From positions 1-32,481 of the forward strand of contig JAFGLD010000281.1 of NCBI GenBank assembly GCA_016928235.1: 32,481 nucleotides of DNA, given 5' to 3'. The stretch's first letter is position 1, and every line of letters starts with the position of its first letter. The stretch is from Anaerolineae bacterium (lineage in GTDB: Bacteria > Chloroflexota > Anaerolineae > Aggregatilineales > UBA3940). The notes below the pieces were generated by a model that saw only the letters and a list, made by a program, of their open reading frames with translations, was not told where the DNA came from and made no database searches. The translations under genes and the position numbers were made by a program. Positions 87 through 32,481 of the stretch are shown here, one piece after another.

Positions 87-148
87 AACAGCTAAGTAGT
101 TACGACAAGTGTAAGTATCAAGAAATTTGGTTTACTGGAAGAAACAAA

Positions 149-2121: not shown

Positions 2122-2168
2122 GTATCTTCTCAATAGCTTGGGGTAGTTTTTACGCATTGAGAAGATAC
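2122..2168. mobile_element. Deleted MITE copy A (both inverted repeats, 47 bp)
   Basis: GTATCTTCTCAAT at 2122-2134 is matched by its exact reverse complement at 2156-2168, extended to 14 bp by the G/C pair 2121/2169. The 21-base interior keeps the left subterminal CTTGGGGTAGT seen in the copies at 17703, 31952 and 32292, so this looks like an internal-deletion derivative. No flanking direct repeat is visible. It sits between two convergent genes and would fold into a 14-bp hairpin in RNA from either strand, so it may help end both transcripts. Confidence 0.7.
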
Positions 2169-12903: not shown

Positions 12904-13011
12904 AGCACACCAGGAAAGACATAATAAACTGTGTGAATGGTGGCAGCGATGACAATAGAAGATGTATTCAGTTTATCATAGCAACTCAAAATGGACATCA
13001 GTGGAACTTTT

Positions 13012-14223
13012 ATGCGCCTGACGAATGAAGAACAAGCGATGTTGGATGGCGGCCAGGGCCAGGCAACCCGGAAAGCAATGCAGATCCTGGTTGCATTGGG
13101 CAGGATCTATGGTGCTGACCGGATGCTGCCGGTGAGATCTGTGCAAATTGCCGGGGTGAGCTATGACAACCTGGGGGATGCCGGTCTCGAGTGGCTCTCG
13201 AAGATGGCTGATGGTGGCGGCCGCGCCTGTGTGACGGCGACACTTAACCCGGCCGGAATGGATATCGAGAATTGGCAGAAGCTTGGCATTCCCGCCGAAT
13301 TTGCCGAGAAACAGAAGAGGGTAATCGATGCTTTTGTCCGCATGGGGGTAACCCCTACCTGTACCTGTACGCCCTATCTGGCCGGGAACAAACCATCGTT
13401 GGGTGATATACTGGCATGGGCGGAGAGCAGCGCGGTGTGTTATGCCAACTCGGTCATCGGCGCGCGTACCAACCGGGAAGGCGGTCCGAGCGCGCTGGCG
13501 GCTGCGCTTACCGGGTGTACACCGGAATACGGAATGCACCTTGATCCGAACCGGCAGCCTGGTGTGACTGTCAAAGTGCAGGCAAGCCTGGTTGACACGG
13601 CAGATTTCGGGGCGCTCGGCAAGGCGATTGGTGAGAAGCTGGAGACGCTTGGCCACAAAGCTATCCCCTTCATTACAGGCATCGAAGCTGCATCGATGGA
13701 GCAGCTCAAATCGTTTTGCGCCAGCATTGCTACCTACGGTGGTTTGGCGATGTTCCATATGCAGGGCATCACGCCCGAAGCGTGTGACTTCGGGCCACCG
13801 GCTGGCGATCATCTTTTGATTACCAGCGATGATCTGGAGCGGGCTCGCCGCTCGTTGTGTGATGCTTTGCCCCATGAGGTGGATTTTGTCTCGCTGGGCT
13901 GCCCACATCTCTCGATCCATGAGGTCGCGCGGGTGGCTGGGCTGCTGAGCGGAAAACGGGTGACGAAGGAATTCTGGATTACCACATCGAGGCCGGTCAA
14001 AGCGACAGCCGATCAGCTTGGATACACAGCGATTATCGAGGCCAGTGGAGCCAAATTTGCGGTCGATACCTGCTGTGTGGTCGCGCCGATCTGTGGACGC
14101 TTCAAGGCTATGGCAACTGATAGTGCTAAGGCCTGTTACTATGCCTATAGCAAGAACAAATTCAGAACGCGATTGTTGGATTTTGACCGGGTGATCGAAG
14201 AGGCATTGGAGGATGAAACGTGA
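13012..14223 (+). CDS. Aconitase X large (catalytic) subunit
   Basis: A 403-aa protein. I prefer ATG 13012 (GGAA about 9 bases upstream; MRLTNEEQAML matches the usual family N-terminus) over ATG 12991, seven codons earlier. The AcnX catalytic domain covers the whole chain: QIAGVSYDNLGDAGLE (45-60), PTCTCTPYLAGNKP (115-128, C117 and C119), AWAESSAVCYANSVIGARTNREGG (135-158), SLGCPHLS (294-301, C297) and VDTCCVVAP (351-359, C354/C355). These Cys are candidates for the iron-sulphur ligands. Known AcnX enzymes are either cis-3-hydroxy-L-proline dehydratase (bacteria) or phosphomevalonate dehydratase (archaeal mevalonate pathway). The sequence resembles the archaeal separate-subunit type from memory, but the substrate is not settled. 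The histidine kinase gene is divergent, with about 100 bases between starts. Confidence 0.9.
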   Translation: MRLTNEEQAMLDGGQGQATRKAMQILVALGRIYGADRMLPVRSVQIAGVSYDNLGDAGLEWLSKMADGGGRACVTATLNPAGMDIENWQKLGIPAEFAEKQKRVIDAFVRMGVTPTCTCTPYLAGNKPSLGDILAWAESSAVCYANSVIGARTNREGGPSALAAALTGCTPEYGMHLDPNRQPGVTVKVQASLVDTADFGALGKAIGEKLETLGHKAIPFITGIEAASMEQLKSFCASIATYGGLAMFHMQGITPEACDFGPPAGDHLLITSDDLERARRSLCDALPHEVDFVSLGCPHLSIHEVARVAGLLSGKRVTKEFWITTSRPVKATADQLGYTAIIEASGAKFAVDTCCVVAPICGRFKAMATDSAKACYYAYSKNKFRTRLLDFDRVIEEALEDET

Positions 14224-14651
14224 CGGCAAACACACAGGAACAACCCTCGACTGCACCAATGAGTCTTCGGGGTCGCTCGATTTGCACCGGGAAGGCCGAG
14301 GGCAACGCGCTGGTTACCACAATGGGAATATCCTTCTTTGGCGGCGTCGATCCCGATTCGGGGGTAGTGGTCGAAAAGGGACACGAGCTTGAGGGCCAAA
14401 CAATCGCAGGGAAGGTTCTTGTTTTCCCCTCCGGGAAGGGATCGACGGTTGGGTCGTACACGCTTTACCGGTTACGTAAGGCGGGCAAAGCGCCCATCGC
14501 TATTGTGAATGCTGAGTGTGAGCCGATCACCGCTGTGGGCTGTATCATCGCCGAGATTCCGTGTGTCGATCAAATCCCCATCGAGCAAATTGCCACCGGA
14601 GATCGTCTTCGGGTCGATGGGGGGGATGGCCAGGTAGAGAGGGTACAATAG
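14220..14651 (+). CDS. Aconitase X small (swivel, DUF126) subunit
   Basis: A 143-aa protein whose GTG start (14220) overlaps the large-subunit TGA in GTGA, which implies translational coupling. An ATG at 14259 (MSLRGRS) is an alternative that would remove 13 disordered residues. The swivel domain shows GRSICTGKAEGNAL (18-31), FPSGKGSTVGSYTLYRL (69-85) and NAECEPITAVG (97-107). The Ser/Gly-rich GKGSTVGS loop is the conserved substrate-binding loop of the family. It should assemble with the preceding gene product into one dehydratase. The stop lies only 2 bases from the stop of the convergent SHOCT gene, so there is no room for a separate terminator. Confidence 0.9.
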   Translation: MTANTQEQPSTAPMSLRGRSICTGKAEGNALVTTMGISFFGGVDPDSGVVVEKGHELEGQTIAGKVLVFPSGKGSTVGSYTLYRLRKAGKAPIAIVNAECEPITAVGCIIAEIPCVDQIPIEQIATGDRLRVDGGDGQVERVQ

Positions 14652-17694: not shown

Positions 17695-17843
17695 GATGAT
17701 TGGTATCTTCTCAATAACTTGGGGCAGTTGTTTCCTGGTTATTAGTTTTTTGACCATCGGCCTGTGTTTTGCACCTGAAAACTGAGCACCAAGAATTGGC
17801 TGCAAGTCACCTTCCTCGGATTATTGAGAAGATACGATGATTG
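17695..17843. mobile_element. Full-length MITE copy B with 15-bp terminal inverted repeats and 8-bp target duplication
   Basis: The element itself is 17703-17835 (133 bp). GTATCTTCTCAATAA (17703-17717) is matched by its exact reverse complement at 17821-17835. Both sides are flanked by GATGATTG (17695-17702 and 17836-17843), a perfect 8-bp direct repeat, the mark of transposition. The interior has no ORF. It shares about 36 of 42 aligned bases with copy D around CCTGAAAACTG. It sits in the gap upstream of the glycosyltransferase gene and downstream of the peptidase gene, so it may have altered the promoter of the former. Confidence 0.88.
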
Positions 17844-17861: not shown

Positions 17862-19268
17862 TCACTTCTTTTCTTTTTTGCCCTTGCTCAAACCTGAAAC
17901 TGATGGCTGCTCGTCGGTGACCAACTGATCTCCCTGCCTGTTTGACTTGGGATATCTGGATTGAGCCAGACCAACATGGGGTGGGAAAAATGCGCGTGGA
18001 TCGATCTGACCAGACCGGTTACCGTCACCTTCGGCTTGCAATTTCTGAGGGGCTGCTTGCTCATCGATAGCCTGTACGAAGGCCCACACATAAGCATAAT
18101 TCCGATCCAGGACATCCGGGACCATCTTATCGAGTGTGTCTTCCTTGTGGTGCCAATACAAATCAGGCCCAGCGTAATCATAGCGTGTGCCGCTTTCATC
18201 AAAACCGGCTATCGTGATGGCCGGGACACCAACACGGAGCGCATCTGCCATTTCGGAGTGTCCACCATCGATCTGTGTTGAATGTGCCTTTAACTCCGGA
18301 TGCCGGCCGGCGACCGCGACTGCTAATGCGATCAGTTCCGGAGACGCGCAAAATGCAAACAGGTTAAAGGTGCTTTCGCGGACAAGGTAGGCAGGATCAT
18401 CGCGCCCCAGCATCTCGAAGACGACAGCCTTGGGGCTGACGAGATCGCCCAGGTGCCGCTTGTAGAAATCGGCGGCGCCATAGTGTTTGACCTCTTCGCA
18501 TCCTGTGCAAGCCAGCCAGACACGTGTGTTTTGGAGTGGCGCGCGGGCTATCTGTTCTCCAAGCGTCAATACCAGCCCCGCGCCGGTTGCATTATCATTG
18601 GCGCCGTTTGAAAAAGGCGCCAGATCGGCTTCCAACATAAATCCTGCAAACAGTAAGGCGTTAATGGCTGCCGGCAGCATCGGCCAGGGCCAGAGCTGTG
18701 GCATTTGCGTTACCAAACCAATGCCGTACAAAACGATTTGAATATAGAAGGTCAGGAAAAAAATCAATGAGAACAGACGCCAGAACTTGATCATTGAGAT
18801 CGAGCGAAAGATGAGACCGCAGTGATTGGTGTCGACATGCCCCATCAAGATGAGATCCTGCTTGTGCTCGCCCGATGGGGGAACAGTGGCTATGACATTC
18901 TGGCTGAATGCTTGAGGCAGCAATTTCCGGACAGGGTTGTTTTTGAACAGTAGCTCCAGACCCTGCGAGATGAGGCAGAGTATTGCGATGAGCAACGCTA
19001 TTGCTGCTCCGACACGTCCGCCCAGGGGATAGACGAAAAACGAGATCAGCATGCCTGTTGCGATGGTGAAGTGGAAGCCAAAGAGCGTTGTTGCGCTCCG
19101 GAAAACCTCGACGTGAGGCTCCAGGCCAAAGTCGCTAAGGACTTTTCGGCAGTAAGCAGATGCCTGTCGTTCTTCGTCGGTGGTTGAGCCGCGTGGCCCG
19201 ATATCTTCAGCCAGCGCGCGGATGTGTCTTAGCCATGTGTTCAGGATATGCGGATCGCTGTGTGTCAT
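17862..19268 (-). CDS. Membrane-associated M28 family zinc metallopeptidase
   Basis: A 468-aa protein from ATG 19268, preceded by AGGAG at six bases. Predicted zinc ligands of the M28 fold are present: H144 in GHVDT, the bridging D225 in GANDNATG, the E258-E259 pair in TGCEEV, and H373 in WHHKEDTLDKM, which replaces the usual YHxxxDT. At the remaining ligand position, E285 (FEMLG) stands where the family usually has Asp. Hydrophobic stretches at about 61-108 and 164-212 interrupt the peptidase fold, so the enzyme is probably membrane-bound. The last 65 residues are a charged, low-complexity tail ending in Lys-rich sequence. M28 enzymes are aminopeptidases or carboxypeptidases; substrate unknown. 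It is co-directional with the GH94 gene 207 bases upstream, but a hairpin lies between them. Confidence 0.88.
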   Translation of the reverse strand: MTHSDPHILNTWLRHIRALAEDIGPRGSTTDEERQASAYCRKVLSDFGLEPHVEVFRSATTLFGFHFTIATGMLISFFVYPLGGRVGAAIALLIAILCLISQGLELLFKNNPVRKLLPQAFSQNVIATVPPSGEHKQDLILMGHVDTNHCGLIFRSISMIKFWRLFSLIFFLTFYIQIVLYGIGLVTQMPQLWPWPMLPAAINALLFAGFMLEADLAPFSNGANDNATGAGLVLTLGEQIARAPLQNTRVWLACTGCEEVKHYGAADFYKRHLGDLVSPKAVVFEMLGRDDPAYLVRESTFNLFAFCASPELIALAVAVAGRHPELKAHSTQIDGGHSEMADALRVGVPAITIAGFDESGTRYDYAGPDLYWHHKEDTLDKMVPDVLDRNYAYVWAFVQAIDEQAAPQKLQAEGDGNRSGQIDPRAFFPPHVGLAQSRYPKSNRQGDQLVTDEQPSVSGLSKGKKEKK

Positions 19269-31877: not shown

Positions 31878-31951
31878 GTCTACCAGGTATGGTTGAGGAA
31901 ATCGACTGTAGCTGACATAGAAATGGATGGCTCGCAGAACGTGCAGCGGAG

Positions 31952-32010
31952 GTATCTTCTCAATAACTTGGGGTAGTCTTTAGTCCGTTCTCGGTTTTTA
32001 GTTCCTTGAC
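31952..32010. mobile_element. Partial MITE copy C (left end only)
   Basis: GTATCTTCTCAATAACTTGG and the following GGTAGT match the left end of copies B and D; similarity fades after about 32010 (GGTTTTTAGTTCCTTGAC). No matching right end is found nearby except that of copy D at 32401-32415, in the correct orientation. Confidence 0.7.
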
Positions 32011-32291: not shown

Positions 32292-32415
32292 GTATCTTAA
32301 TAACTTGGGGTAGTTCTTGGTTTTTTGACCGTCGACCTGTGATTTGCGCCTGAAAACTGATCGCTGATCATCAGGAATGAGCTTGAAGTTGCCTCCCAGA
32401 TTATTGAGAAGATAC
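32292..32415. mobile_element. MITE copy D, near full length
   Basis: The left end GTATCTTAATAA (32292-32303) lacks three bases of the full repeat; the right end TTATTGAGAAGATAC (32401-32415) is intact. Length 124 bp against 133 for copy B, with similar interiors (TTTTTTGACC, then CCTGTG, TTTGC, CCTGAAAACTGA). No target duplication is visible, so it is older or has been rearranged. Confidence 0.8.
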
Positions 32416-32481
32416 ACCGGCACCGTGGGGGTGAGGTCAAACGGCGCTCCTTACACACGCTATTGCTGCCATACTGCTGCC

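Follow-up and report, generated by a model that had tools for sequence, protein, structure and literature searches.

A MITE family of Anaerolineae shares its ends with an IS66-type insertion sequence

What kind of sequence is the 133-bp segment bounded by inverted repeats in this Anaerolineae contig, and which transposase could have placed it there? The window, i.e. the whole stretch of 32,481 nucleotides analysed here, makes up the entire contig C24 of a host genome of 5.35 Mb in 372 contigs. The segment is called copy B below.

Copy B and its relatives in the host genome

Direct reading confirmed the perfect 15-bp terminal inverted repeats (TIRs) and the exact 8-bp target-site duplication (TSD) of the preliminary description; its statement that copy B has no coding capacity was upheld as well. 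The element is intergenic, flanked by two genes on the same strand, its right duplication lying 18 bp beyond the stop of an M28-type peptidase-like ORF (17862-19268, minus strand). Across the window we observed six TIR-like matches with at most three mismatches, against 0.49 expected, and none of 100 shuffles gave six. The three other copies listed earlier (at 2122, 31952 and 32292) do share the family ends; however, the former two are degenerate and the last forms the left part of a composite (Table 1). For the left end at 31952, no second end bordered by a target duplication was found.

Table 1 Features of copy B, other copies in the window, and complete insertion sequences (IS) with the same ends
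Feature	Position	Strand	Details
Left TSD of copy B, GATGATTG	17695..17702	+	Direct reading
Left TIR of copy B, 15 bp, GTATCTTCTCAATAA	17703..17717	+	Direct reading and TIR pattern scan
Copy B, complete simple MITE of 133 bp (module A)	17703..17835	+	No coding capacity
Right TIR of copy B	17821..17835	-	Reverse complement of GTATCTTCTCAATAA
Right TSD of copy B, GATGATTG	17836..17843	+	
Internally deleted copy, 47 bp	2122..2168	+	Imperfect TIRs; flanks without TSD (6/8 mismatches)
Solitary left end, about 27 bp	about 31951-31978	+	TIR plus CTTGGGGTAGT; 96% match
Module A with damaged left TIR (GTATCTTAATAA)	32292..32415	+	Left module of composite A-linker-C
Composite linker, first 66 bp (ACCGGCACCGTGGGGGTGAGG...)	32416..32481	+	Contig ends inside
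G133 IS, 1866 bp	L195:887-2752		TSD AGTGACAT; single intact 553-aa ORF; JACIWR010000029.1, Anaerolineae MAG
G295 IS, 1835 bp	L193:881-2715		TSD TGCAGATG; JAUWHU010000072.1, Thermoflexia MAG

The exact 14-bp end GTATCTTCTCAATA occurs 131 times in the host genome (reversed-string control: 0), and BLAST of the 133-bp element against this genome gave 42 matches. Simple copies of module A with their own 8-bp TSD are found at 17703 of the window and at loci L002 and L006. The host also holds composites of about 390-520 bp with the constant order A-linker-C, module A forming the left part in some 25 fetched copies. In three of them (L008, 517 bp; L016, 507 bp; L023, 390 bp) exact 8-bp TSDs stand at the outer ends, implying that the composite moved as one unit; such composites exemplify the merging of small elements into larger mobile units. 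TSD-bearing elements mostly span 71-229 bp, composites reaching 517 bp, and carry no transposase gene, in agreement with the size of MITEs (below about 600 bp).

Other small elements are interleaved with this family. At L008:1130-1646 an insert with GGCTCAACGCGGAA ends (ISL3-like) and the 8-bp repeat GCATCTTC lies within the composite's TIR; it represents a third type of MITE, inserted into one of the first. Both the host and its genus sibling contain another IS66-type MITE family, the second, whose ends are GTAACTATTCAGC/GTAACTACTCAGC and whose duplications measure 8 bp (L010:272-353, L010:553-674, L085:15136-15392, L084:13672-13760 and L229:319-473). In the host it is also nested within modules A and C, with known empty sites, and the stretch GCTAAGTAGTTAC near the contig start (window 91-103) may be an end of this GTAACTACTCAGC family.

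Target duplications, empty sites and distribution

We examined the flanks of 128 candidate TIR pairs in DNA fetched from the host, its genus sibling and other genomes of the class. Exact repeats of 8 bp flank 28 of the pairs, with none at 5, 6, 7, 9, 11 or 12 bp and a single chance repeat each at 4 and 10 bp. When up to one mismatch is allowed, the 8-bp count rises to 39, against 0.5 expected from shuffled flanks. A 218-kb sample of genome G188 provided a further 21 exact and 6 one-mismatch 8-bp TSDs, many of them at near-identical 112-bp copies, so that amplification there is recent. With about 118 TIRs in these 218 kb (L245-L264), this genome displays an extreme and recent MITE expansion.

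Empty sites come from nested copies in the same genome. A 114-bp element with the family ends (L256:8043-8156) interrupts a 120-bp repeat that is also present in four uninterrupted copies, and a 143-bp element (L253:1672-1814) interrupts the 112-bp MITE, itself represented by many uninterrupted copies. In both cases, once the insert and one TSD copy are removed, the remainder aligns directly with the empty copies. The family thus combines TIRs and a target duplication of constant length with multiple copies at unrelated sites and empty sites, as MITEs do. Together with the autonomous elements described below, this bears out the earlier proposal of a non-autonomous transposable element family.

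Of 396 genomes sampled from the class, 78 contain the pattern GTATCTTCTCAANAA, in 64 of 223 genera, its reversed control giving almost nothing. A search for further copies had been advised in the preliminary description; the ends recur both in the host genome and in its relatives. The maximum is reached in G188, with 278+286 (564) copies, and within a 61-genome sample of the host's own order the pattern is absent save in the genus sibling. Such a patchy distribution would fit an IS spread horizontally, followed by local amplification of MITEs.

An IS66-type partner with the same ends

IS66 came into consideration as the partner family through a decayed host locus (C104:4688-4933) in which a TIR is followed by an IS66-like N-terminus. 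Another transposase relic of the host (C77:22990-23943, 53% identity) is interrupted by stop codons, and neither in the host assembly, a draft about 92% complete, nor in the genus sibling did we find an intact autonomous copy. A search of TIR-bearing genomes with the PF03050 profile yielded two complete elements of 1.84-1.87 kb, in G133 and G295, both having the family ends and the 8-bp TSD characteristic of IS66. The full IS that had been suggested as a check, one with these ends and making 8-bp duplications, has thus been found, and the MITEs have their ends in common with an autonomous element. The family left unrecognised earlier is thereby identified as IS66, in its single-ORF (ISBst12-like) layout.

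One 553-aa ORF spans the G133 element, without tnpA or tnpB, as in the ISBst12 group. Its product scores 49.2 bits with Pfam DDE_Tnp_IS66 (cut-off 23.1) and thus carries the IS66 domain; with the NCBIfam IS66 equivalog it reaches 119.8 of the 180 bits needed, implying a divergent IS66 relative outside the equivalog group. Residues D233 and E474 are invariant in all nine aligned proteins, canonical IS66 proteins included, and no zf-IS66 domain was detected in the transposase by Pfam profile search. Its counterpart in G295 is 57% identical and contains one in-frame TAG. In genome G098, twelve contig ends fall within the same gene for the transposase, immediately inward of a perfect TIR, which is what a high-copy, identical autonomous IS would produce; the element thereby accounts for assembly breaks in such genomes. 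In many MITE-rich genomes of the sample, no transposase of this group was detectable.

Classical IS66 elements possess three ORFs, tnpA, tnpB and tnpC, and GTAA ends are the norm in the family. The Anaerolineae IS shares with them the DDE_Tnp_IS66 domain and the 8-bp duplication, and differs by its one ORF. Complete relatives on plasmids of the cyanobacteria Nostoc and Dolichospermum (52-54% identity, 1782-1806 bp) have ends GTATC..CTCA and an 8-bp TSD; more distant ones, both at about 31% identity, reside on plasmids of the proteobacteria Allochromatium (1741 bp, GTAACTTCTCAATAA, 8-bp TSD) and Mesorhizobium (1723 bp, GTAACCGGGGCAGATTACCGGG). Phage records yielded no relative of the transposase. 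The ends start with GTAT in Anaerolineae and Nostoc and with GTAA in Allochromatium and Mesorhizobium, while ISGka4 has one of each.

Plasmid pHTA426 is reported to carry an IS66 element of the ISBst12 group (PMC8024623); ISGka4 on this plasmid measures 1635 bp, with ends GTAACTATTCAGCC/GTATCTATTCAGCC and an 8-bp TSD. Transposition has been shown for ISDge4 of the same group, which has a single ORF, the end GTAACTGCTCAGCA and an 8-bp repeat (PMC12898284). As in both, the Anaerolineae IS combines a single IS66-DDE ORF, an 8-bp TSD and ends starting GTA[A/T]CT..TCA. In pairwise comparison its transposase has weak but significant similarity to ISBst12/ISGka4 (BLASTP 5e-8). It differs from the group, however, in being longer (553 aa), devoid of a detected zf-IS66 and only about 21% identical to ISGka4 over the alignment, and the ends of the IS are GTATCTTCTCAATAA instead of GTAACT..TCAGC.

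We now propose, with a probability of roughly 0.93, that the MITE is mobilised in trans by an IS66-family IS of single-ORF (ISBst12-like) layout. The anatomy of the elements points to an IS66-type transposase acting on the MITE in trans and to a requirement for ends of about 22 bp. The enzyme would bind these ends, composed of GTATCTTCTCAATAA, 3 bases and GGGG, and would move anything placed between two of them in inverted orientation; a staggered cut at the target, once repaired, would leave the 8-bp duplication. Interiors vary among genomes and subfamilies, as would follow if the ends alone are needed. Two neighbouring MITEs could likewise move through their outer ends as a composite of module A, linker and module C.

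Age of copy B and alternative readings

The preliminary description had suggested that copy B moved recently, which our data do not support: its divergence from the module A consensus amounts to 14.2%, the highest value of 23 copies (3.9-9.4% for the others), and its nearest relative is only 81% identical. The intact 8-bp duplication is in itself weak evidence for recency. In the genus sibling (G001), the upstream gene of copy B was found, the intergenic DNA being too diverged for alignment. Judging by the relics, the host's own helper has probably decayed and the window copy is probably stationary now.

ISL3 was tried first as the partner family because it also makes an 8-bp TSD; its ends moreover resemble G..TCTTC, and host contig C265 starts with an ISL3 transposase fragment. 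However, the delimitable ISL3 elements of TIR-bearing genomes end in GGCTCTTT or GGCTCAAC, none in GTATCTTC, and several TIR-rich genomes, the one with 564 TIRs among them, have no ISL3 match. With the wrong ends, and no ISL3 transposase placed between those of the family, this candidate was rejected, and it is most improbable that an ISL3-family IS serves the MITEs. The PF01609-type transposases of the host were discarded too, having no such ends nearby. A 1.9-kb TIR pair in G122, considered as an autonomous IS, has no TSD and encloses host-type genes; it rather represents two separate MITEs.

Could the copies instead be conserved palindromic extragenic repeats that never transposed, such as terminators, REP-like sequences or structured RNAs, with similar boundaries by chance? 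Their high number, the intergenic position of copy B and the hairpin-forming potential of the MITE sequence (z -2.84) would agree with this, but many unrelated flanks carry exact 8-bp duplications, and these together with the empty sites refute it as a full explanation. Autonomous ISs with the same ends also speak against it, and an Rfam search of the window matched no family, so that we give this reading almost no credence. It is likewise rather unlikely that formerly mobile MITEs have in part been retained for a host role such as terminating transcription or regulating nearby genes: interiors often hold further palindromes, e.g. in the G188 copies, and copy B lies between same-strand genes, yet the distribution is patchy and copies are degenerate and nested. 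A broader version of IS66-driven mobilisation, in which one IS66-type end works as a mobilisation tag throughout the class Anaerolineae, with unrelated interiors and A-linker-C cassettes repeatedly captured and amplified to hundreds of copies, some of them acting as regulatory or terminator hairpins, seems unlikely.

The elements constitute a real and well-supported new MITE family, of an already known, ordinary kind of mobile DNA. As far as excerpts of the respective reports describe them, the bacterial MITEs of Cardinium (PMC9769881) and Pseudomonas syringae (PMC3189936) are similarly short, non-coding, TIR-bounded, multi-copy and IS-dependent, and differ in being tied to other IS families. 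No description of an IS66-type MITE was found in the literature searched. A very abundant and apparently undescribed repeat of Anaerolineae genomes thereby receives a family assignment, together with a helper transposase and a test system.

Two further observations concern ORFs of the window and are drawn from translations. At positions 12991-14651 two adjoining ORFs of 410 and 143 aa overlap; they resemble the two portions of an aconitase X-type enzyme. The ORF at 149-2005 has a FecR-like part followed by low-complexity TNTPGGPTNTP repeats.
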